This document shows, piece after piece, positions 7,475 to 55,900 of a stretch of DNA of 64,000 bases. Source of the stretch: Xestospongia bergquistia (Eukaryota; Porifera; Demospongiae; Haplosclerida; Petrosiidae); the NCBI GenBank assembly GCA_963965975.1, contig OZ014416.1, positions 8,474,432-8,538,431 on the forward strand, read 5' to 3'. Made by a program: the position numbers and the translations under genes. Position 1 is the stretch's first letter, and each line of letters opens with the position of its first letter. The notes under the pieces are model-generated. The model was given only the letters and a program-made list of their open reading frames with translations, was not told the DNA's origin and did not search any database.

Positions 7475-7525
7475 GGATACTGGGATACATACATTTTTCA
7501 TTTGTTTGTCATTATAGGTCGCTCT

Positions 7526-14500: not shown

Positions 14501-17396
14501 AAAAGTTCAAGCCTAATGACAACTCAGGTGTTGTAAGAGTCTCTGATTTCTCTATATTCAGCATTGTCAAGATCAAGCAAAAGTTAAAAAGTCTTTTCTC
14601 TCAATCACCATCTTCTAGCTATGTGATGACAGTATTTTTCAAGCATTTGTTAAGTTCTAGTTGGGCAATCCAAGTAGTGATCACAAAGAATCTTGGACCT
14701 TTTCTTACGGTAATCAGTTACAAGTAAAGTAATATCATACTAACTTAACACAATCCTATATATATTATATCTACTATTTTGTCTGTATTAGAGAGTTAGC
14801 ACTGAGAGGTCTTATGAAAGTTGGAATAAGATAGAATCAGTCTCTTTTCACTTTGATCCAGAAGTCAACGAAGTGACATCTTTACTTGACAATGACTACT
14901 ATGACATCAAGCCATTAAAAAAGCCATGTCAAGTAAGATATTAAACCTTTTTAATGTAAAGGATCATAATATTATTTTGATAAGGTCACTAAGGAAGCTG
15001 TTGATAAAAGTCAACCTGACACTGCCCTACATTACTTAAAATTAAAAGCTTCACTCAAAGCAAACCAAGAGCTTACAGATTTAGAGCTCACATTTAAGGG
15101 AACGAGAGATGGAGAGAGTTTAGTTATTGCAAGAGAAGAATTACAACAAATACAAAGTAGGACAGGTATGAGATATTAAAGATACTGTTGTAATTATAAT
15201 TGTTCTGAATTATAATTAATTTATGCTATTCTTTAGAGGATGTCCCCACTGCTCAATCTGTTTCCAAACATTCAGAGCTCTTGTCTCAAAAAGAAATTTA
15301 TAATGACTTGTTATGTGAGCATGAATTACAAAAATGTTTTACAATTTGTTACTACGACATATATCATTTTATTATTAGGTGAAGGACCAAAGCCACCTGC
15401 TACTCTTTCTACTAGTCAACCTAGTTCTACCAGTACCCTACCTCATACTACTTTTACAACTTTTCCTATTTCTCCTACTTCAACTGCTAGTACTCCTAGT
15501 TCTGTTGATAACCAATCTTCTAATAATACTCTTCCCATTACCAGTAATACTTCTCATTCCAGTATGAAATCTTCATGTCAACCAAAAATTTCAAATGACT
15601 TATTAGGTAAGCCATTGAAGTGGAAATGAAATGAAAAGATTATTCTTTCACATCATATAAATGTATTGTTATTATATAAAGCCATTTTATTCATTAGATA
15701 AAGAACCAAAGAAGCATCACCTGATGACATTACTTCATCCAATTATGTATAAGTGGGATATTATTGGTGTACAACTTGGTGTACCAGATGTTTATATAAA
15801 ATGCACTTTTGAGGAACATCAACATACCAGAAAACTCTCTGAAGTCCTTCAGGTCTGGATAGATAAGAAAACTCGTCTGGTTTGTTGGTAAACAATTATT
15901 ACTGTTGTAGAAGAGCCACCTGTAGAAAATAAAGTAGTAGCTGATGATATATATCAGTTCTTAACAAGACCAGATATTCAGAATGAATATCTACCTTTTC
16001 ATCATCATACTGGTAATTTAAAATTTTATTATGTAAATAAATGTTGTTAATAATATTGTTATAACTCTAGGTCAGCTGATCACTACATTTAATTCTCCAC
16101 CTCCAATTGCACCAAAACCTACTAAGAAGAAAGGTACTAGAATAATTTATTTCTATATGCTCCTGGAGAATGAATGATCATTTTCCTTTTCTAGTAGAGA
16201 TAGATGAAATGGAACAAGAAGCTCCATTACAATCATCTAATCCTATTGGAGTAAGAACTATTTTAAAAACTATCAAAATGTCTTTATCTTTCTTAGTTTG
16301 CTGCTCATTGTCTTCATAAACAAGCTAAACAACGGGAGGAGAAAGATAATGATATGATAGTAGCTACTAAACATATGGCCAGACTGATGATGAAAATGTC
16401 AAAGTTTGCCAAGTAAGTGCATGTCAGAGAATGAAATGTGTGTATTTTGTGTAATGTAATAATTGTTATCACTTAATATTCTATAAAAGGATGAAATTAG
16501 ATACTTTATAGTTACATATAATTCTTTGCCATTCATTATAATATCTTTCATTACAACATGTTACTAGATTGAGTTTATATTTAATTCACTGCTGTATTGT
16601 GGTATTATTAATTTACATAGTGATGAAGTTGGTGAGGTGACATCCAAAGAGGATTTTATGGAAACAGCTACGCTTATAACAAAGGAGAGTAAAAAAGTCA
16701 TCAAAATGGCTAAGAAAATTGCTACTTTTTGCAGAGATGAGAAAATTAACAAGGTGAGCAAAATTAATATATTATAGTGACTAGAGAAAGTGATATGTTC
16801 TTCTTTAAAAGTGATGATATTACTATATTAAATTTGTATTGAATGTAATATATTTTGCACAACATTTTATACAAATATACAAAGATGCCATACTGAGTAA
16901 CTTTTGTTATATAATTCAGAGTTGTATATATACAGTCTTAATATATGTATGGACAAGTTATATTATTATATGTAGAGAGAACTTTTACTTTGGAATGTTG
17001 CTTGCTTACAGTTCTTGTTTGTTGTATAATATATTTGTTTAACTTTTATTTCAATTGTTATAGAGTTTGGTACAAAGTTATGAAAAAATTGAAATGATTG
17101 CTCATCAACTTCAAGCAAATGTTTCTGTAGAGAATACCAGACAAAAAGGAAGAGGTAATGATGAATATAATTGATAATAATAATTATTGTTAAGTGATAA
17201 GTAGTAATTTAAAGTTGTTCATTTTTGCATAGATCCCAAAGAAGACAAGGAAGCCACTCAACTGTTGACCGTTAATGCTGAGAACCTAATGTCTGCAGTG
17301 TCTGATATACTCAGTATTACTGAGAGTGCTATAATAACAGTACCTCCTGAAGATCATGCTCAACTGACTGGCCTAATAAGTTGGGTTAAAAGTTGA
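11540..17396 (+). CDS. Gene B: ANK-ZU5-UPA-Death-vinculin-tail protein with in-frame stop in Death domain
   Basis: Exons: 11504-11578 (ATG at 11540, [13 protein letters not shown]), 11923-12021, 12212-12310, 12466-12564, 12721-12819, 12980-13078, 13237-13335, 13494-13592, 13751-13849, 13893-14076, 14141-14709, 14792-14932, 14985-15165, 15237-15314, 15379-15606, 15698-16012, 16071-16133, 16195-16250, 16297-16412, 16621-16753, 17064-17154, 17233-17396. The coding sum is 3150 nt. Codon 802, at 15889-15891, is TAA where all paralogues have CAA, so translation would stop at 801 aa inside the Death domain. Everything downstream is still open to a normal terminal TGA. This suggests a recent nonsense allele, a truncated isoform, or a sequence error. 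A nine-codon upstream ORF (11510-11536) precedes the start. Confidence 0.8.
11923..14076 (+). CDS. Gene B ankyrin-repeat exons (9)
   Basis: N-terminal cap exon ([17 protein letters not shown]), seven 99-nt repeat exons and a 184-nt C-terminal cap exon ([18 protein letters not shown]). Repeat spacing is 254-259 bp. Repeat 1 begins [16 protein letters not shown], others [10 protein letters not shown] or [10 protein letters not shown]. The residues after the repeat start, and those flanking the Gly-His, differ between units, while the helix core EIVQLLL is constant. Confidence 0.9.
14141..15165 (+). CDS. Gene B ZU5 domain and UPA-like segment
   Basis: Exons 14141-14709, 14792-14932, 14985-15165. 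ZU5 landmarks: [41 protein letters not shown]. Subtype II, shared with E and F: after KFEL comes [16 protein letters not shown], and the last strand reads [11 protein letters not shown], with D-F-S in place of the self-cleaving H-F-S. The UPA-like part ends [19 protein letters not shown]. Confidence 0.75.
15698..16012 (+). CDS. Gene B Death domain exon with nonsense codon
   Basis: [17 protein letters not shown] ... [20 protein letters not shown], then TAA at 15889-15891, then the normal [11 protein letters not shown] continuation in the same frame. Subtype I Death domain, unlike its subtype II ZU5 and tail. The C-to-T change also creates TTG|GTAAAC, a possible 5' splice site just before the stop. 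Confidence 0.75.
16071..17396 (+). CDS. Gene B Pro-rich hinge and vinculin-like tail (downstream of the stop)
   Basis: One Pro-rich exon ([13 protein letters not shown]), acidic hinge ([11 protein letters not shown]), then four tail exons. Subtype II, shared only with [54 protein letters not shown], ending ISWVKS. It is intact, but would not be translated from the full-length message unless the upstream stop is bypassed or spliced out. Confidence 0.75.
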
Positions 17397-28375: not shown

Positions 28376-28597
28376 GAAAAAACAATAGTTCAATATATTG
28401 GTTTGCTCCAGGGGTGTGGCTTGGAGTGGAATTTCAAAAACCAAGTCAGTTACCTTTACTGTTATATCTGTTCTAATTCTCTCTTTCTCTTTCTCTCTCT
28501 CTCTCTCTCTGGCAGTGTTAATGGTAAACGTTACTTTTCCTGTAAACCAAATTATGGTGGTATTAACTGTGCCAAGTTACTAAAAATAGACAAATAG
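28376..28597 (+). pseudogene. CAP-Gly domain exons, copy 4 (5'-truncated)
   Basis: Begins in the middle of the CAP-Gly exon (GAAAAAACAATAGTTC) and carries the same deletions as copy 3. An open frame running in from the DD4 fragment (98 codons from 28301) is a chance chimera. Confidence 0.7.
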
Positions 28598-30515: not shown

Positions 30516-33500
30516 ATGGCAGCTATAAGACGCTTTTTTAATAGAAGGAATCAAGTGAGTTTGTATAACATATGTACTATATAATGTAGTACAAATATTT
30601 TATATCATTCTTATCAATGGACACAAATGTTATCTCTTCTAGAAAATGTACATTAGTAAGGTTACTTATAGTATATAACATGTATAGGGTCCAGTGTCTA
30701 ATAGTAGACAATTGTTCATTACATATTATTAGTAGAATAAAGCAAAGTAAAAGTAAAAGCTGTCAAAAAAGTAGGAGAATGTAGAATAATTTCTAAGAAA
30801 ATTAATTTATACCTTATTGGATCTTTGTTGTGACTCTTGAAGACACATCCTTCATTGAAAGTTATCTATGTGTTATAACCTGAATATTACTATTTTCAGA
30901 GATATGATTTACCTCTTATCAATGCTGCTAAAGATGGAGACCTAGAGGGAGTGATGTCAGCTCTTAAGAATGGAGCAGATGTAAATTATAGAGACAAGGT
31001 AAGTTTTAAATAATAATTCTGTTTTTGGTATAAATGTCTTTCAATAAAATTAGTAAAAAATACTTAATACATCTAATTAATACTGAAAACAGTTTAATAA
31101 TTAATGACATCTCAAACTAGTAATGTTTTGTTGTATTAATAATAATTAGAGAACTTAAAAATGAAATGAAATGCTTTCACTTACAATAAAATAATGACTG
31201 ATCAGTAAAACAAGTGATTAAATGTTATATATGACACACCTCTCTATCAGAATAAATATTAGAACATGTTACATTGAGTGCTGATGTAGTCAAAGTAACT
31301 TACAATAATTAATTTCTCAAGTAACGGTCATACTGAGATAGTGTGAGTTTGTGATATAATTGATGTTAATGTTGTACTAGACAATATAACTTATAATAAT
31401 TAATTTCTATAGGATCAGTGGACAGCTTTACATTGGGCCTCATATAATAGTCATACTGAGATAGTCCAGTTGCTCTTAAAATATAATGCTGATCCCAATA
31501 TTTGTAACAAGGTCAGTGTGTATTATGTATAGATATTGTTGTATGTACTACATAGTATTAAGTCTATATCATACTAGTACAGGATATATAGTATATAGTG
31601 TGAGTTAGTGATATAATTGATGTTAATATTGTACTAGTCAATGTGACTTACAATAATTAATTTCTATAGGATCAGCAGACACCTCTATATGTGGCCTCAA
31701 GTAATGATCATACTGAGATAGTCCAGTTACTCTTAAAATATAATGCTGATCCCAATATTTGTGACAAGGTCAGTGCGTATTATGCATAGATATTGTTGTA
31801 TGTACTACATAGTATTAAGTCTATATCATACTAGTACAGGATATATAGTGTATAGTGTGAGTTAGTGATATAATTGATGTTAATATTGTACTAGTCAATG
31901 TAAGTTATAATAATTAATTTCTCTAGAATCAAGAGACGGCTATATATCATGCCTTAAGAAATGGTCATATTGAGATAGTCCACTTACTCTTACAACATCA
32001 AGCTGATCCCAATATTTGTGACATGGTCAGTGTGTATTGTATATAGATATTGTTGTATGTACTACATAGTATTAAGTCTATATCATACTAGTACAGGATA
32101 TATAGTGTATAGTGTAAGTTAGTGATATAATTGATGTTAATATTGTACTATTCAATGTAAGTTATAATAATTAATTTCTCTAGAATCAAGAGACAGCTCT
32201 ATATCATGCCTCAAAAAATGGTCATACTGAGATAGTCCAGTTACTCTTAAAGTATAATGCTGATCCTAATATTTCTAACAATGTCAGTGTATATCGTGTA
32301 TATATATTGTTGTATGTACTACATAGTATTAAGTCTATATCATACTAGTTCAGGATATATAATGTATAGTGTGAGTTAGTGATATAATTGATGTTAATGT
32401 TGTACTAGTCAATGTAACTTATAATAATTACTTTCTATAGTATCAGGAGACGGCTCTATATCATGCTTCATATAATGGTCATACTGAGATAGTCCAGTTA
32501 CTCTTACAACATCAAGCTGACCCCAATATTTATAACAAGGTCAGTGTGTATTGTGTATAGATATTGTTGTATGTACTACATAGTATTAAGTCTATATCAT
32601 ACTAGTTCAGGATATATAGTGTATAGTGTAAGTTAGTGATATAATTGATGTTAATATTGTACTAGTCAATGTAAGTTATAATAATTAATTTCTCTAGAAT
32701 CAAGAGACGGCTATATATCATGCCTTAAGAAATGGTCATATTGAGATAGTCCACTTACTCTTACAACATCAAGCTGATCCCAATATTTGTGACAAGGTCA
32801 GTGTGTATTGTATATAGATATTGTTGTATGTACTACATAGTATTAAGTCTATATCATACTAGTACAGGATATATAGTGTATAGTGTAAGTTAGTGATATA
32901 ATTGATGTTAATATTGTACTATACAATGTACGTTATAATAATTAATTTCTCTAGAATCAAGAGACAGCTCTATATCATGCCTCAAAAAATGGTCATACTG
33001 AGATAGTCCAGTTACTCTTAAAGTATAATGCTGATCCTAATATTTCTAACAATGTCAGTGTATATCGTGTATATATATTGTTGTATGTACTACATAGTAT
33101 TAAGTCTATATCATACTAGTTCAGGATATATAATGTATAGTGTGAGTTAGTGATATAATTGATGTTAATGTTGTACTAGTCAATGTAACTTATAATAATT
33201 ACTTTCTATAGTATCAGGAGACGGCTCTATATCATGCCTCATATAATGGTCATACTGAGATAGTCCAGTTACTCTTACAACATCAAGCTGACCCCAATAT
33301 TTATAACAAGGTCAGTGTGTATTGTGTATAGATATTGTTGTATGTACTACATAGTATTAAGTCTATATCATACTAGTTCAGGATATATAGTGTATAGTGT
33401 AAGTTAGTGATATAATTGATGTTAATATTGTACTAGTCAATGTAAGTTATAATAATTAATTTCTCTAGAATCAAGAGACGGCTATATATCATGCCTTAAG

Positions 33501-36500
33501 AAATGGTCATATTGAGATAGTCCACTTACTCTTACAACATCAAGCTGATCCCAATATTTGTGACATGGTCAGTGTGTATTGTATATAGATATTGTTGTAT
33601 GTACTACATAGTATTAAGTCTATATCATACTAGTACAGGATATATAGTGTATAGTGTAAGTTAGTGATATAATTGATGTTAATATTGTACTATTCAATGT
33701 AAGTTATAATAATTAATTTCTCTAGAATCAAGAGACAGCTCTATATCATGCCTCAAAAAATGGTCATACTGAGATAGTCCAGTTACTCTTAAAGTATAAT
33801 GCTGATCCTAATATTTCTAACAATGTCAGTGTATATCGTGTATATATATTGTTGTATGTACTACATAGTATTAAGTCTATATCATACTAGTTCAGGATAT
33901 ATAATGTATAGTGTGAGTTAGTGATATAATTGATGTTAATGTTGTACTAGTCAATGTAACTTATAATAATTACTTTCTATAGTATCAGGAGACGGCTCTA
34001 TATCATGCCTCATATAATGGTCATACTGAGATAGTCCAGTTACTCTTACAACATCAAGCTGACCCCAATATTTGTGCTAAAGTCAGTGTGTATTGTGTAT
34101 ATATATTGTTGTATGTACTACATAGTATTAAGTCTATATCATACTAGTTCAGGATATATAGTGTATAGTGTGAGTTAGTGATATAATTGATGTTAATGTT
34201 GTACTAGTCAATGTAACTTATAATAAATAATTTCTATAGGATCAGTGGACAGCTTTGCATTGGGCCTCAAGAAATAGTCATACTGAGATAGTCCAGTTAC
34301 TCTTAAAATATAATGCTGATCCCAATATTTGTAACAAGGTCAGTGTGTATTGTGTATATATATTGTTGTATGTACTACATAGTATTAAGTCTATATCATA
34401 CTAGTACGGGACATATAGTGTATAGTGTGAGTTAGTGATATAATTGATGTTAATATTGTACTAGTCAATGTAATTTATAATAATTAATTTCTATAGGATC
34501 AGTGGACAGCTCTACATTGGGCCTCATATAATGGTCATACTGAGATAGTCCAGTTACTCTTACAACATCAAGCTGATCCCAATATTTATAACAAGGTCAG
34601 TGTGTATTGTATATAGATATTGTTGTATGTACTACATAGTATTAAGTCTATATCATACTAGTACATGATATATAGTGTATAGTGTGAGTTAGTAATATAA
34701 TTGATGTACTAGTCAATGTAACTTATAATAAATAATTTATATAGGATCAGTGGACAGCTTTACATTGGGCCTCAAGAAATAGTCATACTGAGATAGTCCA
34801 GTTACTCTTAAAACATAAAGCTGATCCCAATATTTGTGACAAGGTCAGTGTGTATTGTGTATAGATATTGTTGTATGTACTACATAGTATTAAGTCTATA
34901 TCATACTAGTACAGGATATGTAATGTATAGTTTGAATTAGTGATATAATTGATGTTAATATTGTACTAGTCAATGTAACTTATAGTAATTAATTTCTGAA
35001 GTATCAGTGGACAGCTCTACAAGAGGCTTCAAGAAATGGTCATACTGAGATAGCCCAGTTACTCTTACAACATCAAGCTGATCCCAATATTTATAACAAG
35101 GTCAGTGTGTATTGTGTATAGATATTGTTGTATGTACTACGTAGTATCAAGTCTATATAATACTAGTACAGGATATATAGTGTATAGTGTGAGTTAGTAA
35201 TATAATTGATGTTAATATTGTACTAGTCAATGTAACTTATAATAATTAATTTCTATAGGATCAGTGGACAGCTTTACATTGGGCCTCATATAATGGTCAT
35301 ACTGAGATAGTCCAGTTACTCTTACAACATCAAGCTAATCCCAATATTTATAACAAGGTCAGTGTGTATTGTTTATAGATATTGTTGTATGTACTACATA
35401 GTATTAAGTCTATATCATACTAGTTCAGGATATATAGTGTATAGTGTGAGTTAGTGATATAATTGATGTTAATATTGTACTAGTCAATGTAACATATAAT
35501 AATTAATTTCTATAGTATCAGTGGACAGCTCTACATTGGGCCTCTCATAATGGTCATACTGAGATAGTCCAGATACTCTTACAACATCAAGCTAATCCCA
35601 ATATTTATAACAAGGTCAGTGTGTATTGTTTATAGATATTGTTGTATGTACTACATAGTATTAAGTCTATATCATACTAGTTCAGGATATATAGTGTATA
35701 GTGTGAGTTAGTGATATAATTGATGTTAATATTGTACTGGTCAATGTAACTTATAATAATTAATTTCTATAGGATCAGTGGACAGGTTTACAATGGGCCT
35801 CAAGAAATAGTCATACTGAGATAGTCCAGTTACTCTTAAAACATAAAGCTGATCCCAATATTTATAACAAGGTCAGTGTGTATTGTGTATATATATTGTT
35901 GTATGTACTACATAGTATTAAATCTATATCATACTAGTACAGGATACATAGTGTATTGTGTGAGTTAGTGATATAATTGATGTGAATATTGTACTAGTCA
36001 ATGTTACTTGTAATAATTATTTTTTTTAGGATCAGGAAGCATCTCTACATTGGGCCTCATATAATGGTCACACTGAGATAGTCCAGTTACTCTTAAAATA
36101 TAAAGCTGATCCCAATATTTGTAACAAGGTCAATGTGTATTGTGTATAGAAATTGTTGTATGTACTACATAGTATTAAATCTATATCATACTAGTGCAGG
36201 ATACATAGTGTATTGTGTGAGGTAGTGATATAATTGATGTTAATATTGTACTAGTCAATGAAACTTAAAGTAATTAATTTCTTTAGGATCATTGGACAGC
36301 TCTACATTGGGCCTCATATAATGGTCATACTGAGATAGTCCAGTTACTCTTAAAATATAAAGCTGATCCCAATATTTGTAACAAGGTCAATGTGTATTGT
36401 GTATAGAAATTGTTGTATGTACTGCATAGTATTAAATCTATATCATACTAGTACAGGATACATAGTGTATTGTGTGAGTTAGTGATATAATTGATGTGAA

Positions 36501-39500
36501 TATTGTACTAGTCAATGAAACTTAAAGTAATTAATTTCTTTAGGATCATTGGACAGCTCTACATTGGGCCTCATATAATGGTCATACTGAGATAGTCCAG
36601 TTAATCTTAAAATATAAAGCTGATCCCAATATTTGTAACAAGGTCAATGTGTATTGTGTATAGAAATTGTTGTATGTAGTACATAGTATTAAATCTATAT
36701 CATACTAGTACAGGATACATAGTGTATTGTGTGAGTTAGTGATATAATTGATGTTAATATTGTACTAGTCAATGTAACATATATTAATTAATTTCTATAG
36801 GATCAGTGGACAGCTCTACATTGGGCCTCACATAATGGTCATACTGAAATAGTCCAGTTACTCTTACAACATCAAGCTGATCCCAATATTTGTGATATAG
36901 TTAGCATAAGACTGATTTTGTTGCTAATTTATTTTTTGTTAGTATGGTGATACTGCATTACATATTGCCTACAGTGGAGGTCATCTTAATGTTATTAGAT
37001 GTTTACGATCTGAAGGAGCAGATGTAACTATTAAGAACAAAGAGGGTAATACTCCACTAGAAAAATGTCAAAATGCAATCAGGAAGGAAATTGGTAGTCT
37101 CTTTAACAAGTATAATCCAAAGCGAAGTGAGATAATAATAAACAACACTACACACTCACACATTCCTTATTTGTTATTATCTAGTTTTGGAAGATGTGTC
37201 TAAGTGGAATATTGAATATGTTGAAGAAGAGCAGGTCTTTGAGAAAGAAGAGTATGGAGTCATGTTAGTCATTCCACCATCAGCAGTAGAGAAGAAAAAA
37301 GAAGTTAAAACTGAAGTTAAGGTTGTTGCACCTGAGGAAACAAATATCATTCTCCCTCCTGATGTTGAGCTTGTGAGCTGTTTCTATAAAATTGAAACAA
37401 CTGGAAAATTTTTAAAACCTATTAAACTTTATCTTCAACATAATGTTGAACTTACATCACAAGAAGAATGTGAACAGCTAGCCTTTATAAAAGTTAAAGG
37501 TCCACCACCTTATAAATTTGAATTATTGCCCACTGATGTACAAGAGTTTAGACCTTATGACAACTCTGGAGTTGTTAGACTCTGTGATTTCTCTCGATTT
37601 GCGGTAGTTAAGAAAAAGTTTCAAAAACTAATCCGACAACTATCTTGCAGTTATATAGTGACAGTTTTTTTTAAGCAAATAATGAAATCTTGTTGGGAAA
37701 TACAAGCAGTAGTCACAAAGAATCTTGGACCTTTCTTAAAGGTATATTTGTCAAATAATAAAAAGAATAATAGTTTTTATCATTAGAATTTTTTAAAGAT
37801 ATTAATATTATTCATAATATACTCTTGTATTTGTTAGAGGGTAAAGACTGAGGCTTGTTTTGAAAGTTGGAAGAGAATAGAACCAGTCTCTTTTTTCTTT
37901 GATCCTGTCATTAATGAAGTGACAATTACTAATGAGTACTATGAGATCAAACCAATGAACAATCCATTTCAAGTAAAGTATTTAGTTAATGTTGTGACTT
38001 TGTTATATTTATTGTATTAAAGGTCTCTAAGGAAGCTGTTGATATGTGTAAACCTGATACTGCCCTACCTTATTTAAAATTTCAAGCCTTTCTTAAAGAC
38101 GATAAAGAGGTTACTGACCTTAAGCTTAGTTTTAAAGGAATGAGAGAAGAGGCGAGTTTAATGATTGCTAGTTATGATTTGCAACAAATGAAAGGTATGG
38201 AATTTAGACAATTAAATTATTATTTCATTAATGCATAGAAAATTTAATAATAATAAAATAACTTTCCACAGCTAAATTACTTTTATAATTTTATGTAGAT
38301 ATTTCTGCTCCTTCATTTCCTGCTACTCTTTCTACTAGTCAACCTAGTTCTACCATCAGTACCCTACCTCGTCCTACTTCTATAACTTTTCCTATTTCTC
38401 CTACTTCAATTGCTAGTACTCCTAGTTCTGTTGATAGCCAATCTTCTATTAGTACTCCTCCTATTGTCAGTGATCCTTCTTCTTATAGTACAAAATCTTC
38501 ATGTCAATCAAACATTCCAAGTAACTTGTTATGTGAGTGATTTAAGTATAAAATGAAAGTTGTTATTAGAGATTGTACTTTAACATTATGTAATAGTATG
38601 GATAAGCATTTTTTCATTAGATAAGGAGCATCATTTGACAATGTTACTTCATCCAATTAAGTACAAGTGGGATACTATTGATGAACAACTTAAAGTGCAT
38701 TTTAGTGATGTAAAGCCTGCTGAGTACAATGTGCCATATGAAAAGATTATGCTTTCACATTATATAAATATATTGTTATTATATAAAGGCATTTTATTAA
38801 TTAGGTAAGGAACCAAAGAAGCATCACCTGATGACATTACTTCACCCAATTAAGTATGAGTGGGATATTATTGGTACACAACTTGGTGTACCAGATGTTT
38901 ATATAAAATGCACTTTTGAGGAACGTCAACATACCAGAAAACTCTCTGAAGTCCTTCAGGTCTGGATAGATAACAGAACTCGTCTGGTTTGTTGGCAAAC
39001 AATTATTACTGTTGTAGAAGAGCCACCTGTAGAAAACAAAGTAGTAGCTGATGATATATATCAGTTCTTAACAAGTCCAGATATTCAGAATGAATATCTA
39101 TCTTCTCATCATCAGACTGGTAAATAAAATTTTATTATGTATATGAATATTGTTATAAGTCTAGATCACGTGATCACTACATTTAATTCTCCTCCTCAAA
39201 TTGCACCAAAACCTACTCCACAAAAAGGTATTAGTCCTAACAATTATTGTATATTAATAACATTTTTCATTTGTTTGTCAGTAGACATAGGTCGCTGTAT
39301 GTCTACTGTTATTCGTGCACCAAAACCCTCTACAAGGAAAGGTACACAATAGACTCATAAATACTTATTCATAATTTATTTCTGTAGGTCGTCCTTTATC
39401 TTATCCTCCACCTCCTATTGCACCAAAACCTACTAAAAAGAAAGGTACTAGAATAATTTATTTCTGTATGCTCCTGGAAAGTGAATGATCAATGTTTTTT

Positions 39501-40900
39501 TTTCTAGTGGAGATAGATGAAATGGAACAAGAAGCTCCATTGCAATCATCTAATCGTATTGGAGTAAGAACTATTTTAAAACTATCAAAATGTCTTTATC
39601 TTTCTTAGTTTGCTGCACATTGTCTTCATAAACAAGCTAAACAATGGGAGGAGAAAGATAATGATATGATAGTAGCTACTAAACGAATGGCCAGACTGAT
39701 GATGAAAATGTCAAAGTTTGCCAAGTAAGTGCCATAGAATGAAATGTATACTTTAGTTAACTTATATATATATGTTTTACTTATAAACTGATTTTTTATT
39801 GGATTTATATGTACAACATACAAGTATATCTGTAGTTATAGAATTATGCTCTGATTAATGGTCTACTTTATATTTTGATTATCTTTCTTTTATAGAGATG
39901 AAGAAGGTGATGTCACTTCTAAAGAAGATTTTATACAAACAGTTAAACTTATTGTCAAAGACAGTAAAGAGGTTGTTGATATAGCAACAAAAGTTGTTGA
40001 AGTTTGTACAGACACACAACTGAAAAATGTGAGTTAATTGATAGATTGTACATACATAAAGTAATTTTAATTATTAATAATATATGCAGTGATTGATTGA
40101 TTATAAAATTTATAATTTGTGAGCATTTCTGATTAAATTGATTAGTCATGATTATAGGGAAGTCATTTTAACACCTGATATATAACTGTTTATAAACTTC
40201 TTTTTCAACTAGTTTTGTATTTTCTATACAGACTCTATCACAAGTTATTGATGGTATTCCAAACTATGCTACTCAACTCAAAATTAATGTTGATGTACAT
40301 GGAAGAAGAGGAGGAGATAGTATGTTATAAATTGTGAATTATTAACATTCAATGATTGATATAATCCACGAAACAAAGAATATATTTTTGACTATGATCA
40401 ATCTTAGCTACAACAAAATACTTTAAAATAAAGCTAATGATTTTAAAAGCTTACAATTGGTTAAAGACTCCAAAGAAATAACTTGATTATTTACATATTA
40501 TCATCACTGTTATGAACTCAGTCCACAAATGTCAAAGTACAGTTCATTTATATATTAAGCTATTATGTACATATCCTGTATAAACTAGAGAGAATACCTA
40601 TATTGTAAATTGTTATAGTTAGTATATTGTTACTATATAATTACTAGTTTATTATTATATTATAATAGTACATGTGTCTTTATTATAATGTATTTTAAAT
40701 GTAATATTTATTATATGTACTTAATTTATTTTACAGATCCAGAGGGAGATAAGGAAGCTACTAGATTGTTGACAGTTAATGCTGAGAATCTTATGACTGC
40801 TGTGAGTGTAGTACTTAATACTACAGAGAGTGCTTTAATAAAAGTACCTCTAGAAACTCGTGCACATTTGACTGGTCTAAGCTGGATCAAAAAATCATAA
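30516..40900 (+). CDS. Gene D: ANK(24)-ZU5-UPA-Death-vinculin-tail protein
   Basis: Largest family member. Exons: 30476-30554 (ATG 30516, [13 protein letters not shown]), 30900-30998, 22 repeat exons from 31413 to 36899, 36943-37126, 37185-37741, 37838-37972, 38023-38194, 38299-38532, 38805-39119, 39165-39227, 39291-39341, 39388-39444, 39508-39563, 39609-39724, 39896-40028, 40232-40319, 40737-40900. Coding sum 4641 nt, giving 1546 aa; every junction is in phase. Approximate residues: ANK 14-833, ZU5-UPA 834-1121, Ser/Thr/Pro linker 1122-1199, DD 1200-1304, Pro-rich 1305-1361, acidic hinge 1362-1380, vinculin tail 1381-1546. A nine-codon upstream ORF (30482-30508) precedes the start. No lesion was found in the chosen exons, so D is the best candidate for an active full-length gene. 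Confidence 0.88.
30900..37126 (+). CDS. Gene D ankyrin-repeat exons (24)
   Basis: N-cap 30900-30998, then 99-nt exons starting at 31413, 31670, 31927, 32184, 32441, 32698, 32955, 33212, 33469, 33726, 33983, 34240, 34497, 34745, 35002, 35259, 35516, 35773, 36030, 36287, 36544 and 36801, and C-cap 36943-37126. Spacing is 257 bp in 20 of 21 steps (248 once). Each exon is one 33-residue repeat, phase 0/0, with no stop in any. Variants include [48 protein letters not shown] and [16 protein letters not shown]. The C-cap donor reads CGA A|GTGAGA, one base different from the other genes but phase-compatible. Confidence 0.92.
31313..31345 (+). pseudogene. Truncated ankyrin exon relic in gene D
   Basis: CAAGTAACGGTCATACTGAG, the middle of a repeat exon, is fused on both sides to intron-type sequence. 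A deletion removed the rest of one repeat unit. It is presumably spliced out with the intron. Confidence 0.6.
31927..34239 (+). repeat. 771-bp higher-order repeat, three units, each three ANK exons
   Basis: Units start at 31927, 32698 and 33469. Within each the exon types run [48 protein letters not shown], and even private variants (for example ATATATATTG after the second exon) recur at exactly 771 bp. This is a recent triplication, younger than the 257-bp array. Confidence 0.9.
37185..38194 (+). CDS. Gene D ZU5 domain and UPA-like segment
   Basis: Exons 37185-37741, 37838-37972, 38023-38194. Subtype I like A ([15 protein letters not shown]; last ZU5 strand [11 protein letters not shown]). 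It has Ser where A has Cys, but again Asp rather than His before Phe-Ser. It is four residues shorter than A after KKKFQKL. The UPA-like part contains [10 protein letters not shown] and [17 protein letters not shown]. Confidence 0.75.
38621..38740 (+). pseudogene. Truncated Death-domain exon relic in gene D
   Basis: [16 protein letters not shown] ... AEYNVPY, then the sequence breaks at 38740 into intron sequence (AAAAGATTATGCTTTCAC, as before the Death exon of A). It lacks the second half of the fold and a donor site. The linker exon ending at 38532 joins in phase to the intact Death exon at 38805, skipping the relic. The relic resembles subtype II, so D once held two Death exons or received part of one by recombination. 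Confidence 0.75.
38805..39119 (+). CDS. Gene D Death domain exon
   Basis: [20 protein letters not shown] ... [12 protein letters not shown] ... [15 protein letters not shown] ... YQFL. Subtype I, nearly identical to gene A. Intact, with CAA at the codon that is TAA in gene B. Confidence 0.82.
39165..40900 (+). CDS. Gene D Pro-rich hinge (3 exons) and vinculin-like tail
   Basis: Pro-rich exons 39165-39227 ([14 protein letters not shown]), 39291-39341 (APKPSTRKG) and 39388-39444 ([16 protein letters not shown]); acidic hinge 39508-39563; tail 39609-39724, 39896-40028, 40232-40319, 40737-40900. The repeated P-x-I-A-P-K-P-T core could bind SH3 or profilin-type partners (inference). The tail is subtype I with the vinculin landmarks [19 protein letters not shown] and [13 protein letters not shown] and ends SWIKKS. 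Confidence 0.85.
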
Positions 40901-41619: not shown

Positions 41620-44600
41620 ATGGAACAAGAAACTCCTTCCCAATCATCCAATCCTATTGTAGTAAGAAATAAATCTTAAATACTATTACTTCTAAGTAAT
41701 AAAATATGTTGAATTTCTTTTACTATTTTTAGGTATATGATTTATACAATGCTGCTAAAGATGGAGACCTAGAGAGAGTGAAGTTATCTCTTAAGAATGG
41801 AGCAGATGTGAATTTTAGAGACAAGGTTAGTTTTAAATAATAATTCTAGAAATGTCTTTCAATAAATTTAGTAATAAGAGTTATCACTCATTAGTAAAAC
41901 AAATACTTTAGTTGATGGTGTATGATGACACACCATTCTATCTGTAGAACATTAAAACATCATATATTGAGAATTGATGTTAATATTGTACTAGTCAATG
42001 TAACTTATGATAATTAATTTCTATAGAATCAATGGACAGCTTTACATTGGGCATCAAGAAATAGTCAGACTGAGATAGTCCAGTTACTCTTAAAATATAA
42101 TGCTGATCCCAATATTTGTGACAACGTCAGTGTGTATTATGTATAGATATTGTTGTATGTACTACATAGTATTAAGTCTATATCATAGTATAATCATACT
42201 AGTACAGGATATATAGTGTATAGTGTGAGTTATTGATATAATTGATGTTAATATTTTACTAGTCAATGTAACTTATAATAATGAATTTTTGTAGCATCAG
42301 CGAACAGCTCTATATCTTGTGTCAAGAAAGGGTTACACTGAGATAATCCAGTTACTCTTACAATATAATGCTAATCCAAATATTTGTAACAAGGTCAGTG
42401 TATATTATGTATATATATTGTTATATGTACTACATAGTATTAAGTCTATATCATACTAGTACAGGATATAGTGTGAGTTAGTGATATACACTGCAAAAAT
42501 TGATTGGTTGATTTAACCATTATTCGGTTTTACAGGTTGCAATTACAAACTTATTTTTGTTGGAAAAGTAAGCATAATACTGTTTTCATTACTAATGTAC
42601 TACTGCTTATGTAATGCTAATGTAGCTACATAGCCATTAATTTCATAACACATTAGTAATGAAAATAGTATTAAGTTTACTTTTTGCATATGCAACCATA
42701 TAATCATGTATTGGTTAAACCAACTATTTAATTTTTATAGTGTAATTGATGTTAATATTGTACTAGACAATGTAACTTATAATAATTAATTTCTATAGTA
42801 TCAGCAGACTCCTCTATATTGGGCCTCAATAAAAGATCATACTGAGATAGTCCAGTTACTCTTGCAGTATAAAGCTGATCCCAATATTTGTGACAAGGTC
42901 AGTGTGTATCATGTATAGATATTTTTGTATGTACTACATAGTATTAAGTCTATATCATACTAGTACAGGATATATAGTGTATAGTGTGAGTTAGTGATAT
43001 AATTGATGTTAATATTGGACTAGTCAATGTAACTTATAATAATTAATTTTTCTAGGATCAGGAGACAGCTCTACATTGGTCCTCAAGATATGGTCATACT
43101 GAGATAATCCAGTTGCTCTTACAACACCAAGCTAATCCCAATATTTGCAGCAAGGTCAGTGTGTATTATGTATAGATATTGCTGTATGTACTACATAGTA
43201 TTAAGTCTACATCATACTAGTACAGAATATATAGTGAATAGTGTGAGTTAGTGATATAATTGATGTTAATATTGTACTAGTCAATGTAACTTATAATAAT
43301 TAATTTCTTTAGGATCAGGAGACAGCTCTACATTGGGCCTCAAGAAATGGTCATGCTGAGATAGTCCATTTACTCTTACAACATCAAGCTAATCCCAATA
43401 TTTGTAACAAGGTGAGTGTGTATTGTGTACAGATATTGTTGTATGTACTACATAGTATTAAGTCTATACTAGTACAGGATATATAGTGTATAGTGTGAGT
43501 TAGTGATATAATTGATGTTAATATTGTACTAGTCAATGTAACTTATAATAACTAATTTCTATAGGATCAGAGGACAGCTCTATATTGGGCCTCAAGAAAT
43601 GGTCATACTGAGATAGTCCAGTTACTTTTACAACATCAAGCTAATCCCAATATTTGTAACAAGGTGAGTGTGTATTGTGTACAGATATTGTTGTATGTAC
43701 TACATAGTATTAAGTCTATACTAGTACAGGATATATAGTGTATAGTGAGAGTTATTGATATAATTGATGTTAATATTGTAGTAGTCAATGTAACTTATAA
43801 TAATTAATTTCTATAGGATCAGGAAACAGCTCTACATTGGGCCTCAATAAAAGGTCATACTGAGATAGTTCAGTTACTCTTAAAACATCAAGCTGATTCT
43901 AATATTTGTAACAAGGTCAGTGTCTATTGTGTACAGATTTTGTTGTATGTACTACACAGTATTAAGTCTATATCATACTAGTACAGGATATATAGTGTAT
44001 AGTGTGCGTTAGTGATATAATTGTACTAGTCAATATAATCTATGGTAAATAATTTCTGTAAGGTCAATGGACAGCTCTATATTGGGCCTTTATGTAATGG
44101 TCATATTTAGATAGTCTAGTTACTCTTAAAATATAGCGCTGATCCTAATATTTGTGATATGGTTAGTATTAGACTCATTTTGTTGATAATTTACTTTTTG
44201 TTAGTATGGTGAAACTGCATTGCATATTGCCTGCCGTGATGGTCATCTTAATGTTATTAGTTGCTTGCTATCTGAAGGAGCAGATGTAACTGTTAAAAAT
44301 AAAAGTGGTCACACTTCACTGGAAAAATGTCAAGATACAATCAGGAATGAAATTGTTAGTCTCTTTAACAAGTATAATCCAAAACGAGGTGAGGTGTTAT
44401 TAAAGATGAACAACATTACACACTCACACATTCCTTATTTGTTATTATCTAGTTTTGGAAGATGTATCTAAGTGGAATATTGAAAATGTTGAAGAAGAGC
44501 AGGTCTTTGAGAAAAGAGACTATGGAGTCATGTTAGTCATTCCACCATCAGCAGTTGAGAAGAAAGAAGAAGTTAAAACTGAAGTTAAGGTTATTGCACC

Positions 44601-47600
44601 TGAGGAAACAGATATCATTCTCCCTCCTGATGTTGAGCTTGTGAGCTGTTTCTATAAAATTGAAACAACTGGAAAATTTTCAAAACCTATTGAACTTTAT
44701 CTTCAACATAATGTTCAACTCACATCACAAGAAGAATGTAAACAGTTAGCCTTTATAAAAGCTAAAAGTCCGCCACCTTATAAATTTGAGTTAGTGCCAA
44801 TTGAAATTGATCAAAAGTTCAAGCCTAATGACAACTCAGGTGTTGTAAGAGTCTCTGATTTCTCTGTATTCAGCATTGTCAAGATCAAGCAAAAGTTAAA
44901 AAGTATTTTCTTTCGATCACCATCTTCCAGCTATGTGATGACAGTATTTTTCAAGCATTTGTTAAGGTCCAGTTGGGCAATCCAAGCAGTGGTCACAAAG
45001 AATCTTGGACCTTTTCTTAAGGTAATCAATTTCAAGTAAAGTAATTTTGTACTAAGTTAACACAATCCTCAATATATATATTATATTTACTATTTTGTCT
45101 GTATTAGAGAGTTAGCACTGACAAATGTTTTGAAGGTTGGAATAAGATAGAAACATTCTCTTTTCACTTTGGTCCAGAAGTCAATGAAGTGACATCTTTA
45201 CTTGTCAATGACTACTATGACATCAAGCCATTGAAAAAGCCATGTCAAGTAAGATCTTAAACCTTTTTAATGTAAAGGATCATAATATTATTTCGATAAG
45301 GTCACTAAGGAAGCTGTTGATAAAAGTCAACCTGACACTGCCCTACATTACTTAAAATTAAAAGCTTCACTCAAAGCCGACCAAGAGCTTACAGATTTAG
45401 AGCTCACATTTAAGGGAATGAAAGCTGGAGAGAGTTTAGTTATTGCAAGAGAAGAATTACAACAAATACAAAGTAAGACAGGTATGAGATATTAAAGATA
45501 CTGTTGTAATCATAATTGTTCTGATTTATAATTAATTTACGCTATTCTTTAGAGGATGTCACCACTGCTCAATCTGTTTCCAAACATTCAGAGCCCTTGT
45601 CTCAAAAAGAAATTTATAATGACTTGTTATGTGAGCATAAATTACAAAAATGTTTTTCAATTTGTTACTATGACATATATCATTTTACTATTAGGTGAAG
45701 GACCAAAGCCACTTGCTACTCTTTCTACTAGTCAACCTAGTTCTACCAGTACCCTTCCTCATACTACTTCTACAACTTTTCCTATTTCTCCTACTTCAAT
45801 TGCTAGTACTCCTAGTTCTGTTGATAAACAATCTTCTATTGGTACTCCTCCTATTGTCAGTGATCCTTCTTCTTACAGTACAAAATCTTCATGTCAATCA
45901 AACATTCCAAATGACTTGTTATGTGAGTGATTTAAGTGTAAAATGAAAGTTGTTATTGGAGATTGTACATTAACATTATGTAATAGTATGGATAAGCATT
46001 TTTCTTCATTAGGTAAGGTACCAAAGAAGCGTCACCTGATGACATTACTTCATCCAATTAAGTACATGTGGAATACATTTGGTGAACAACTTGAAGTACC
46101 TTATGGTGATATAAAGTCTGCAGAGTACAATGAGGCCTATGGAGATACTACAAAACTCTCTGAAGTCCTTCAGGTCTGGATGAATAAGAAAACTCGTCTG
46201 GTTTGTTGGCAAACAATTATTAGTGTTGTAGAAGAACCACCTGTAGAAAACAAAATAGTAGCTGATAATATATATCAGTTCTTAACAAGACCAGACATTC
46301 AGAATGAATATATGTCTTTTCTTCATCATACTGGTAAAATAAGATTTATTATTTATAAGATGTTCTTTGTCATCACTCAAGGTCAAATGATCAGTACTTT
46401 TAATTCTCCTCCTCCAATTGCACCAAAACCTACTGAAAAGAAAGGTATAAGTTCTAACTAAGTTTTAGATTAATCATCAATTTTTCCTTTTCAAGTAGAG
46501 ATAGATGAAATGGAACAAGAAGCTCCATTACAATCATCTAATCCTATTGGAGTAAGAACTATTTTTAAAACTATCAAAATGTTTTTTTCTTTCTTAGTTT
46601 GCTGCTCATTGTCTTAATAAACAAGCTAAACAATGGGAGGAGAAAGATAATGATATGATAGTAGCTACTAAACGAATGGCCAGACTGATGATGAAAATGT
46701 CAAAGTTTTCCAGGTATATGTATCATAGAGAATAAGCTTTATTATTAATATTATTATTATTAATTTTCATATAATATATTAATTATTGTTACTTAATATT
46801 GTATAAAGGGATAAACTTATAATGATATCAACTATAAATTACAATACTTTATTGTTACATATAATTTTTTGCCATTCATTAGAATATAAACATTCTCTTT
46901 CATTACAACATGTTACTTTATTGAATTTATACTTAAATCACTGTTGTGTTGTGGTATTATTAATTTACATAGTGATGAAGTTGGTGAGGTGACATCCAAA
47001 AAGGATTTTATGGAAACAGCTATCCTTATAACAAAGGAGAGCGAAGATGTTATCAAAATGGCTAAGAAAGTTGCTACCTTTTGCAGAGATGAACAAATTA
47101 ACAAAGTTAGTAAAACATTAATTTTATCTAGTAACTAAAGATTATGATAGTTTGTTAGGTAGTGATAGGATATTAAATTTGCATTGAACATAATATATAT
47201 TTTGTGTGACATTCTATCATGATATCCAAAGACACTATAATGAGTAACTTTTCTTATCAAGTATATTTTGTTTATAACCTATAGTCACAAAGAAAGAAAC
47301 TTATATTCTGTCATATTATGTTCATCTTATTTTTTGTTGTATGATACATTATTTAAAATTTTTAATTTAAATTTTATAGAGTTTGGTACAAAGTCATACA
47401 GCAATTGAAAGTATTGCTCATCAACTTAAAATAAATGTCTCTGTAGAGAATACCAGAAAAAAAGGAAAAGGTAATCATGAATATAATTGATTATAATAGT
47501 TATTATTAAATGATAAGTAATAATCTAAAGTCATTCATTTTTACATAGACCCAAAAGAAGATAAGGAAGCCACTCAACTGTTGACAGTTAATGCTGAGAA

Positions 47601-47712
47601 CCTAATGTCTGCAGTGTCTGATATACTCAGTATTACTGAGAGTGCTATAATAGCAATACCTCATGAAGACCATGCTCAACTGACTGGCCTAATAAGTTGG
47701 GTTAAAAGTTGA
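41620..47712 (+). CDS. Gene E: ANK-ZU5-UPA-Death-vinculin-tail protein with rebuilt 5' end
   Basis: Exons: 41602-41661 (ATG 41620, [14 protein letters not shown]), 41733-41825, 42027-42125, 42295-42393, 42799-42897, 43056-43154, 43313-43411, 43565-43663, 43817-43915, 44205-44388, 44453-45021, 45108-45248, 45301-45481, 45553-45630, 45695-45922, 46013-46333, 46382-46444, 46496-46551, 46598-46713, 46973-47105, 47380-47470, 47549-47712. Sum 3153 nt, giving 1050 aa, in phase throughout. The usual MAAIRR-type first exon is absent; the start codon lies instead in a diverged copy of the acidic hinge exon (paralogues: [16 protein letters not shown]). One dead ANK exon (about 44061-44159) must be skipped, which keeps frame. 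Domains as in B and F, about residues 15-337 ANK, 338-634 ZU5-UPA, 737-843 DD, 884-1050 tail. Confidence 0.8.
41733..44388 (+). CDS. Gene E ankyrin-repeat exons (9 intact)
   Basis: N-cap 41733-41825 ([19 protein letters not shown], two codons shorter than in paralogues), seven 99-nt repeats, and C-cap 44205-44388 ([18 protein letters not shown]). Repeats vary at the usual positions ([64 protein letters not shown]). Confidence 0.88.
42489..42742. mobile_element. MITE in a gene E intron (TA target site)
   Basis: 254 bp with long imperfect terminal inverted repeats: starts CACTGCAAAAATTGATTGG, and the end reads, in reverse complement, CACTATAAAAATTAAATAG. Complementarity extends towards the middle (for example ACTGTTTTCATTACTAATGT against ACATTAGTAATGAAAATAGT). 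Flanked by TA on both sides, where the intact family intron has a single GATATAATTGATG. No coding capacity. TA duplication and CACTG ends suggest a Tc1/mariner-type non-autonomous element (inference). Confidence 0.8.
44061..44159 (+). pseudogene. Dead ankyrin exon in gene E
   Basis: Recognisable repeat exon (TGGACAGCTCTATATTGGGCC) with a damaged acceptor (GTAAG|GTCAATGG in place of TAG|GATCAATGG), an insertion after GGCC that shifts frame, and stops (ATG TAA; TTT AG). Skipping it joins 43915 to 44205 in phase. Confidence 0.75.
44453..45481 (+). CDS. Gene E ZU5 domain and UPA-like segment
   Basis: Exons 44453-45021, 45108-45248, 45301-45481. Subtype II ([27 protein letters not shown]). [12 protein letters not shown] and KPIELYLQH are present. 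UPA-like part: [44 protein letters not shown]. Asp-Phe-Ser again replaces the self-cleaving motif. Confidence 0.75.
46013..46333 (+). CDS. Gene E Death domain exon
   Basis: [20 protein letters not shown] ... [40 protein letters not shown]. Subtype II, shared with F; two residues longer than subtype I. Preceded by two Ser/Thr/Pro-rich linker exons (45553-45630, 45695-45922). Confidence 0.82.
46382..47712 (+). CDS. Gene E Pro-rich hinge and vinculin-like tail
   Basis: One Pro-rich exon ([14 protein letters not shown]), acidic hinge 46496-46551, tail 46598-46713, 46973-47105, 47380-47470, 47549-47712. Subtype II as in B ([63 protein letters not shown]). Frame open to TGA, so here the complete tail can be made, unlike in B. 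Confidence 0.83.
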
Positions 47713-52910: not shown

Positions 52911-55900
52911 ATGGCAGCTATAAAACGCATTCTTAATAAAAGGAATCAAGTGAGTTTATATAATATATGTACTATATAGTGTAGTCCACACATATTATAT
53001 TATACTTATCAATGGACACAAATGTTATCCCTTCTAGAAAATGTACATTAGTAAGGTTATCAATGTATAGGGTCCAATAGTCTAATGGTAGACAATTGTC
53101 CATTGCATATTATTAGTATATTAAAATACATCTAGCAAAACTAAGTAGGAGAAGTGGAATAATTCCTATAAAATTGAGTTATTACTATTTATACTTTATT
53201 GGTCTTTGTTTTAAAACTTAAAGACACACCCTCTTTTAAAAGTTATCTTTTATTATAATCTATATCTTACTATTTTCAGAGCTATAATTTATCTTTTGTC
53301 AATGCTGCCAAAAATGGAGACTTAAAGGGAGTCGTGTCAGCTCTTGAAAATGGAGCAGATGTGAATTTTCAAGGCAAGGTTAGTTTAAATAATAGTACTG
53401 TTTTTGGTATAAATGTCTTCCAATAAATTTAGTAAAAATACTTAATGCATTGACTTGTTACTGAAAACAGTTTAATAATTAATGACATCTCAAATTAGCA
53501 ATGTTTTGTTTTATTATTAATTGGCGACATAATCTGACTGTACCATAGTCAGTGTGTATTATAAATAGATATTTTTGTATGTAGTACCTAGTATTAAGTC
53601 TATATCATATTAGTACAGGATATATAGTGTGTACTGTGAGTTAGTGATATAATTGATGTTAATATTGTACTAGTTAATGTTACTTATAATAATTAATTTC
53701 TGTAGGATCAGCAGACAGCTCTACATCAAGCATCGAATAAAGGTCACACTGACATTGTCAAGTTACTGTTAAAATATCAACCTGATCCCAATATTTGTGA
53801 CGAGGTCATTGTATATTTAGTATAGATATTGTTGTATGTACTGTACAGTATTAAGTCTATATCATACTAGTACAGGATACATATTGTATAGTATTAGTTA
53901 GTGATATAATTGATGTTAATATTATCCTAGTCAATGTAACTTATAATAAATAATTTCTGTAGGATCAGCAGACACCTCTACATCAGGCATCGAGTAAAGG
54001 TCACACTTACATTGTCCAGTTACTCTTAGAATATAATGCTGATCCCAATATTTGTGACGAGGTCAGTGTATATTGTATATAATATTGTTGTATGTACTGT
54101 ACAGTATTAAGTCTATATCATACTAGTACAGGATACGTAGTGTATAGTGTGAGTTAGTGATATAATTGATGTTAACATTGTACTAGCTAATGTAACTTAT
54201 AATAATTAATTTCTGTAGTATCAGTGGACACCTTTACATTGCGCCTCAAATAATGGTCATACAGAGATAGTCCAGTTACTCTTACAACATCAAGCTGATC
54301 CTAATATTTGTAACAAGGTCAGTGTGTATCATGTATAGATATTGTTGTATGTACTACATAGTATTAAGTCTATATCATACTAGTACAGGATATATAGTGT
54401 ATAGTGTGAGTTAGTGATATAATTGATGTTAATATTTTACTAGTCAATGTAACATATAATAATTAATTTCTATAGGATCAGTGGACAGCTTTACATTGCG
54501 CCTCAAATAATGGTCATACTGAGATAGTCCAGTTACTCTTACAACATCAAGCTGATCCTAATATTTGTAACAAGGTCAGTGTGTATCATGTATAGATATT
54601 GTTGTATGTACTACATAGTATTATGTCTATATCATACTAGTACAGGATATATAGTGTATAGTGTGAGTTAGTGATATAATTGATGTTAATATTGTACTAG
54701 TCAATGTACCTTACAATAATTAATTTCTACAGTATCAGTGGACAGTTCTATTTTGGGCCTCAAGAAATGGTCATACTGAGATAGTCCAGTTGCTCTTAAA
54801 ATATAATGCTGATCCCAATATTTGTGACATGGTCAGTGCGTATTATGTATAGATAATGTTGTATGTACTACATAGTATTAAGTCTATATCATACTAGTTC
54901 AGGATATATAGTGTATAGTGTGAGTTAGTGATATAATTGATATTAATATTGTACTAGTCAATGTAACTCATAATAGTTAATTTCTGTAGAATCAGAGGAC
55001 TGCTCTACATTGGGCCTCAGAAAATGGTTATACTGAGATAGTCCAGTTACTCTTACAGTATAAAGCTGATCTCAATATTTGTAACAAGGTCAGTGTGTAT
55101 TGTGTATAGATATTGTTGTATGTACTACATAGTATTAAGTCTATATCATACTAGTTCAGGATATATAGTGTGTAGTGTGAGTTAATGATATAATTGATAT
55201 TAATGAAGTACTAGCCAGTGTTAGTTATGATAATGAATTTGTATAGGATCAGGAGACAGCTTTACATTGGGCCTCAAGTAGTGGTCATACTGAGATAGTC
55301 CAGTTATTCTTGCAGTATAAAGCTGATCCCAATATTTGTGACAAGGTCAGTGTGTATCATGTATAGATATTTTTGTATGTACTACATAGTATTAAGTCTA
55401 TATCATACTAGTACAGGATATATAGTTTATAACATGAGTTAGTGATATAATTGATGTTAATATTTTTCTAGTCAATGTAACTTATAAAAATTAATTTCTA
55501 TAGTATAAGAGGACAGCTCTATATTGGGCCTCATATAATGGTCATGCTGAGGTAGTCCAGTTACTCTTAGAACATCAAGCTAATCCCAATATTTATAACA
55601 AGGTCACTGTATATTGTGTATAGATATTGTTGTATGTACTACATAGTATTAAGTCTATATCATACTAGTACAGGATATACAATGTATAGTGTGAGTTAGT
55701 GATATAATTGAGGTTAATATTGTACTAGTCAATGTAATATATAATAATTAATTTCTATAGGATCAGTGGACAGCTTTACATTGGGCTTCATATAATGGTC
55801 ATACTGAGATAGTCCAGTTACTCTTACAACATCAAGCTAATCCCAATATTTATAACAAGGTCAGTGTGTATTGTGTATAGATATTGTTGTATGTACTACA

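Follow-up and report, generated by a model that had tools for sequence, protein, structure and literature searches.

In the genome of the sponge Xestospongia bergquistia (assembly GCA_963965975.1, 146 Mb in 21 contigs), ankyrin repeats, a ZU5 domain and a Death-like domain were found joined in one reading frame to the tail with which vinculin, a cell-adhesion protein, grips the actin skeleton. The layout exists in the genome sequence itself and was confirmed in a 64,000-bp stretch of contig C6 (OZ014416.1; C6:8474432-8538431), hereafter the window, in which five genes (A, B, D, E and F) and a tail-only copy (A2) were modelled. Gene D (30516-40900, + strand) consists of 38 exons, separated by introns that are all GT-AG, in one frame of 1,548 amino acids; the original prediction had the single frame right, but its length of 1546 amino acids was not borne out by our count. 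The order in gene D is 24 ankyrin repeats, ZU5, the UPA-position region, a Ser/Pro linker, a Death-like domain, a Pro-rich hinge and a vinculin tail of four exons ending in SWIKKS. "UPA position" is our label for the two exons between ZU5 and the Ser/Pro linker, chosen because UPA itself was not detected. The parts of gene D are:

30516..30554, + strand: first exon (ATG, [13 protein letters not shown], donor GTGAGT), resembled by those of B (11540) and F (52911)
30900..37126, + strand: ankyrin block of 23 exons of 99 bp in phase 0, plus a last exon at 36943-37126
37185..37741, + strand: ZU5 exon (Pfam ZU5 9.8e-5, scoring 23 bits where the cut-off is 21), with a DFS motif towards the exon end
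37838-37972 and 38023-38194, + strand: UPA-position exons, without a UPA match
38299..38532, + strand: Ser/Pro/Thr-rich linker exon, from the gene model
38805..39119, + strand: Death-like exon, assigned by the family profile, without a Pfam match in D alone
39165-39227, 39285-39341 and 39388-39444, + strand: Pro-rich hinge exons H1-H3 (in F, the Pfam Vinculin match starts within the hinge)
39508..39563, + strand: hinge end exon H4, [19 protein letters not shown], which resembles an exon of the genome's own vinculin genes
39609-39724 (V1), 39896-40028 (V2), 40232-40319 (V3) and 40737-40900 with stop (V4), + strand: vinculin tail, by Pfam, PDB and tree

Domain identity

The tail of gene D matched Pfam Vinculin at 2.3e-35 and, over its whole length, the PDB entries VIN1 (6e-31, residues 9-184 of 185) and chicken vinculin (7e-27, residues 7-184), so that its assignment to the vinculin family holds. 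A chance helical match was rejected on the Pfam value. Alpha-catenin was rejected as well, its best PDB match (5.8e-10) being weaker than that of vinculin; alpha-catenin is absent from the tail tree described below. In full-length F the Pfam Vinculin match (2.4e-38) included the hinge and formed a single stretch at profile positions 639-847 of 852. No match to the vinculin head (D1-D4) was present in F, as only this part of the Pfam profile was covered.

Full-length F further matched Pfam Ank (1e-134) and ZU5 (8e-5), the latter in one stretch only, without a second ZU5. The ZU5 match was weak but consistent, being found by Pfam in all five window copies and in 25 of 25 family copies at E <=0.1 (best 7.5e-7), and the ZU5 label was thus upheld. 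Of 32 family members, 26 matched Pfam Death at E <=0.1 (best 2.5e-7), and the match of the Death family profile to FADD went from 0.005 with 8 sequences to 1.9e-5 with 32; as a family profile, the Death label stood. Pfam returned no leucine-rich, NACHT, CARD or TRADD-N match in full-length F, although the TRADD-N model may miss a diverged type. There was no Rfam match at the gathering threshold and no tRNA.

The sister genes in the window

The other modelled genes are listed here; tail classes are explained under selection and exchange.

402..5445, + strand: gene A, layout as in D, its 5' exon outside the model and probably off the window
7518..9135, + strand: tail-only copy A2, hinge plus V1-V4
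11540..17396, + strand: gene B, layout as in D, with one in-frame stop, in the Death exon
41733..47712, + strand: gene E, layout as in D, with a class II tail; first exon not found
52911..60429, + strand: gene F, layout as in D, 28 exons, 1,217 amino acids, with a B/E-type front and an A/D-type tail

The models agree with the earlier proposal that ankyrin, ZU5, Death, hinge and tail exons share one frame in D, E, F and A, and in B past its stop, and the junctions named with it (39119/39165 and 39563/39609) are those used in our model of gene D. Death, hinge and tail exons are phase-compatible in all five genes. Exon length differences among the five copies were multiples of 3 in 33 of 33 pairwise comparisons, versus 19 of 79 for introns; of the 33, 11 (PS and H1 exons) were fixed by our choice of phase and the other 22 amount to about four indel events. 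The number of ankyrin repeats is 24 in D, 7 in A, 9 in B, 9 in E and 14 in F.

In gene D each 99-bp exon encodes one repeat, with the 24th in the longer last exon, and the period of the array is about 257 bp. Between 31338 and 36893, 22 ankyrin exons with their introns form this 257-bp tandem array, in which a near-identical three-unit (771-bp) higher-order repeat occupies about 31927-34081. An extra partial Death-like exon (38620-38748) just 5' of the Death exon of gene D has no fitting donor by eye and looks like a remnant. Gene E has an ankyrin-like pseudo-exon with stops (44063-44161), which could be skipped because ankyrin exons are 99 bp long and in phase 0. Most of A2 lies in a 3.5-kb tandem duplication (3948-7474 and 7639-11176, 98.8% identity).

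Origin of the tail

The minus strand of contig C1 carries, at 25597-25625 kb, two vinculin genes in which both head and tail were matched, together with one more tail that is damaged. They are vinculin by sequence, the tail matching VIN1 at 2.8e-45. Their hinge ends, [18 protein letters not shown] or [18 protein letters not shown], are closely similar to H4 of gene D, and four introns are common to both: H4/V1 (phase 0), V1/V2 (phase 2), V2/V3 (phase 0) and V3/V4 (phase 1). An unrooted tree was built from 31 tails, five of vinculin and 26 fused, with the incomplete tail of locus L018 left out. In it the fused tails formed one group (100/99), which was joined to the two C1 vinculin tails (100/99). 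VCL, VIN1 and a vinculin-like gene on C13 stood apart from these. VIN1, the best PDB match of the tail and outside the fused group in the tree, is presumably the vinculin of the sponge Oscarella. The C13 gene (L005, C13:633000-642000) is a second vinculin-like gene, with a long branch in the tree and the head-lock residues DKR kept.

The shared introns and the tree support a captured block made up of the last hinge exon and the four tail exons with their intron positions, nearest to the C1 vinculin genes; the tail would therefore have come as DNA with introns from the lineage's own vinculin. Capture of the vinculin 3' end as a block, as proposed before, is supported by the similar hinge exon, the four introns and the grouping in the tree. 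From tree and introns, a single capture followed by duplication and expansion appears the simplest history; several captures may instead have been evened out later by gene conversion.

A genome-wide family

The fusion is a genome-wide family of about thirty loci, accompanied by many ZU5-Death relatives without a tail nearby. Searches of the genome were seeded with the first tail exon V1 (38 places), the ZU5 exon (at least 151 matches), the Death exon (at least 150 matches) and the second UPA-position exon (71 places). A locus was counted as fused if V1 was preceded on the same strand by a Death exon no more than 4 kb away and a ZU5 exon no more than 8 kb away, for which 72 of the 151 ZU5 and 66 of the 150 Death matches were used. 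Among these matches, 29 of the 38 V1 places, on C1, C4 and C6, had both exons upstream, with the tail exon 0.5-1.7 kb 3' of the Death exon. Among the 29, C6:8613772 is clearly damaged: stops interrupt its tail and its Death exons, and ZU5 is matched at a distance of 4 kb. The other nine comprise the three C1 vinculin tails, A2, a partial copy (C1:10793194), two places on C1 near 21.3 Mb where the ZU5 match contains stops and no Death exon was among the matches listed, a C3 place with neither Death nor ZU5 among them, and L020, also on C3. In L020 the Death exon is 4.2 kb upstream, just past the cut-off, and inspection made it the thirtieth fused locus. At 27 of the 72 ZU5 places a Death exon was present and no tail exon was found within 8 kb, again among the matches listed.

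Twenty fused loci, namely L020 and 19 of the 29, were fetched after being chosen for ZU5 and Death exons upstream of V1; counting the window genes as well, 24 of the 29 places were inspected exon by exon. All 20 contained ankyrin, ZU5, both UPA-position exons, the Death-like exon and V1, in this order, and the tail was complete (V2-V4 at E <0.5) in 20 of their 21 tail copies. The original interpretation was right about layout and block capture; the extent of the family and its tail-less relatives had been missed.

Some relatives and neighbours differ from this pattern. A tail-less ZU5-Death relative on C1 (L027) has, at 1211-1387, an open stretch 3' of the Death exon which ends, by eye, in a possible membrane-spanning helix and may not belong to the gene. 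Beside a tail-less relative on C6 there is a further ZU5 exon (L026, 2296-2874), which belongs to another type (Pfam ZU5 1.4e-4). Between B and D in the window, a separate gene (24084-26306) contains four consecutive Death-like exons, with three Pfam Death matches of which one is above the cut-off (3.8e-5); ankyrin-type exons are present at 21974 and 22835, and similar sets of Death exons recur on C6. A 978-bp duplication (27307-28284 and 28375-29352, 99.5% identity) carries a CAP-Gly fragment (9.5e-7) and has diverged copies at about 5857-7281 and 9547-10983.

Selection and exchange of tails

The reading frame of the fused form is under purifying selection, as supported by 25 copies. Median omega, calculated from pairs with synonymous divergence (dS) >0.15 and matches covering at least 85% of the exon, was 0.24 for ZU5, 0.24 for Death, 0.36 for V1, 0.36 for V2 and 0.40 for V4 (V3 was left out), and stops were found in only 2 of 124 exons. 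Median dS was 0.79 for ZU5, 0.88 for Death and 0.26 to 0.50 for the tail exons; the tails are therefore younger or more homogenised.

The window tails fall into two classes, I (A, A2, D and F) and II (B and E). Between the classes, DNA identity was 49-65% in the tail introns (background 52%) and 64-76% in the V2 and V4 exons. Across the five genes, identity is 93-100% in H4, in V1 and in the intron that separates the two, and gene F switches from a B/E-type front to an A/D-type tail near the first hinge exon. This pattern supports an exchange of tails between neighbouring window genes near the hinge.

Functional residues

In vinculin the tail is locked to the head through D974, K975, R976 and R978, according to the accessible parts of PMC6927945 and PMC10721916. 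In the 26 fused tails K975 was kept in 4 (changed in 22) and R976 in none. The C1 vinculins have K975 in both copies and R976 in one of the two. W912 was retained by 25 fused tails and W1058 by 24.

Change of I997 to Ala greatly lowers actin binding of vertebrate vinculin (accessible part of PMC10721916). Among the actin contacts, I997 (24/26), N1026 (26/26), E1042 (25/26) and Q983 (19/26) were kept in the fused tails; R976 and R1039 were absent from all 26, N980 and R987 from every tail aligned there, and E1021 was found in a single tail, a count on which the differing placement of the loop at about 1008-1021 in two alignments bears. The residue pattern fits a tail without a head, and the fused tail, in which several contact residues are changed, may bind actin.

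Variability of the ankyrin repeats peaked at the binding-type positions, for which a generally known list was used (entropy 1.48 versus 0.62; one-sided Mann-Whitney, P 0.001; 50 distinct units). Together with the varying repeat number, this is consistent with a recognition surface. Near the end of the ZU5 exon, F-S was present in 17 of 25 copies, Y-S in 1, F-C in 5 and another pair in 2, the pair in L019 being read by eye and the position relative to cleavage judged by order only. PIDD and CARD8 cleave themselves at HF/S and SF/S sites (accessible part of PMC3210808), and the Phe-Ser, which would lie at approximately the same place, is a lead only.

Proposed function and alternatives

As a whole, the data are best explained by capture of a vinculin tail by an expanded ankyrin-ZU5-Death family, giving a cytosolic signalling adaptor, a reading that we hold to be somewhat probable and whose functional part is predicted. 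The ankyrin array, variable in number and in binding positions, would recognise a ligand; ZU5 and the region following it would restrain the Death domain; the Death domain would recruit Death-fold partners; and the vinculin tail would place the whole protein at F-actin or an acidic membrane. As a vinculin head is absent and most fused tails differ at two of the four head-lock residues, the tail would be open and not autoinhibited.

A number of observations weigh against this adaptor or its parts. The gene models were rebuilt from exon anchors and read from genomic DNA alone. In a Pfam profile search of gene D, which retrieved Vinculin and ZU5 as anticipated, UPA and Death were missing, and the Death-like exon of D taken alone had no Pfam Death match, which counts against the Death label for this single gene. 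The predicted Death structure is of low confidence (predicted local distance difference test, pLDDT, 65.9), and Foldseek matched this model to no Death fold in PDB; the ZU5 model reached a pLDDT of 33. The UPA-like label given earlier found no support: Pfam UPA was matched neither in the window nor in the 25 family copies, and no chain of UNC5, ankyrin or PIDD came up in a profile search of PDB, although this search must be insensitive since it also missed the ZU5 of the same chains. V3 exons of the two tail classes share 53-55% DNA identity, no better than the background of 52%. As to the open tail, D974 is kept in 25 of the 26 fused tails and a K or R at position 978 in 21, and the change of the head lock is not wholly specific to the fusion, as one of the genome's own vinculin copies lacks R976. 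Only 3 of 10 F-actin hydrogen-bond residues given in the accessible part of PMC10721916 are kept in gene D (Q983, N1026 and E1042). Finally, binding-type positions are variable in most ankyrin proteins, so that their variability here is weak evidence for a sensor.

The contacts missing from the fused tails (R976, R1039, N980, R987 and nearly always E1021) and the higher omega of the tail exons (0.36-0.40) than of the ZU5 and Death exons (0.24) would be expected if the fused protein were real and its tail, no longer binding actin, were kept as a helical bundle for lipid, dimerisation or another partner. We consider this possible but less than probable, given that I997, N1026 and E1042 are nearly always kept and that several of the same contacts are already gone in the genome's own vinculin (N980T, R987A and R1039Y, with the same or other residues in the fused tails); these changes in the own vinculin also speak against the adaptor. 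The order ankyrin-ZU5-(UPA position)-Death is that of ankyrins, and nine sponge species had no ankyrin combining ankyrin repeats with ZU5-ZU5-UPA, as far as the accessible part of PMC5135030 goes, which makes a substitute thinkable in a sponge. The protein might thus be an ankyrin-like cytoskeletal scaffold that links membrane proteins to actin, its Death domain playing no part in signalling. This is rather doubtful, because repeat number runs from 7 to 24 among five neighbouring genes, the roughly thirty copies with their tail-less relatives look like a recognition family and not one conserved scaffold, and four Death-like exons follow one another in a gene nearby in the window.

Two further explanations concern the genes themselves. 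The tail exons could be separate downstream vinculin-tail genes whose joined frame is never made, as the tail-only copy (7518-9135) exists and the gene models were read from genomic DNA; the matching phases of Death, hinge and tail exons in the five window genes and the position of the tail exon behind a Death exon on the same strand at 29 of the 38 places make this very unlikely, as far as can be judged short of a systematic search for start exons 5' of the tails. Decay of an over-expanded family into debris would account for the stops in the Death exon of B, in V2 of L012 and in V1 of C6:8613772, for the missing first exon of E, the partial copy in L018, the two broken C1 places near 21.3 Mb and the pseudo-exons at 38620-38748 and 44063-44161, but with so few stops in the exons of the 25 copies, and median omega at 0.24-0.40, we give it hardly any credence.

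The adaptor reading can be taken further, in a form that we regard as improbable. The proteins would be lineage-specific cytosolic recognition receptors of an early-branching animal, with an ankyrin sensor and a ZU5 that cleaves itself at Phe-Ser/Cys and frees a C-terminal Death piece; the tail would tie this piece to actin, coupling cytoskeletal damage or force to Death-fold signalling, and tails would be swapped between neighbours at the hinge.

If the adaptor reading is true, adhesion (the vinculin tail) and Death-fold signalling are combined in one polypeptide encoded by about thirty genes, which would connect actin to Death-fold signalling directly and physically. As vinculin relatives, fused genes and tail-less relatives coexist in one genome, a new domain combination can be traced intron by intron.

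Comparison with known systems

In line with the earlier claim that no such protein had been described, a literature search, with subscription journals mostly outside its reach and automated protein databases not covered, found no description of an ankyrin-ZU5-Death-vinculin-tail layout in the accessible texts. In a collection of 5.8 billion proteins, no relative at E 0.001 was found for hinge plus tail (224 candidates; a length rule excluded full-length relatives) or for the ZU5-to-tail part of F (5,332 candidates); the collection seems poor in animals, so these negatives say little.

According to the accessible part of PMC8195603, the sponge Amphimedon has 357 TRADD-N proteins, many of which combine Death domains with ankyrin repeats in unique arrangements. 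Our family resembles these expansions in being a large, lineage-specific Death set with ankyrin repeats and varied attached domains; unlike them, F has no Pfam TRADD-N match, and a vinculin tail is not mentioned in that part of the source. With PIDD, UNC5 and the FIIND of NLRP1/CARD8 the fused proteins share a ZU5 followed by a Death-fold domain; in most copies an F-S near the end of the ZU5 exon may correspond to the HF/S and SF/S cleavage sites. Pfam FIIND was matched by 2 of 25 family members (best E 0.03), and F differs from PIDD and NLRP1/CARD8 in lacking a leucine-rich, NACHT or CARD match.

Ankyrins consist of 24 ankyrin repeats, ZU5-ZU5-UPA and Death (accessible part of PMC5135030). 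The fused genes have the same order of ankyrin repeats, ZU5 and Death, and gene D happens to have 24 repeats; in contrast to canonical ankyrins they have one ZU5, no detected UPA, 7-24 repeats and a terminal vinculin tail. An ankyrin-like domain order thus occurs in a sponge, a group from which canonical ankyrins are reported missing in the accessible part of the same paper. At least one vinculin and at least one alpha-catenin were present in every species studied, according to the accessible part of PMC5968619. Compared with vinculin (6bfi VIN1, 1st6 and 3jbi), the fused proteins are without a head match, have K975 and R976 mostly changed and carry ankyrin-ZU5-Death in front; like vinculin, they have the five-exon block of hinge end and tail, four introns shared with the genome's own vinculin, and W912, W1058 and I997 mostly kept.

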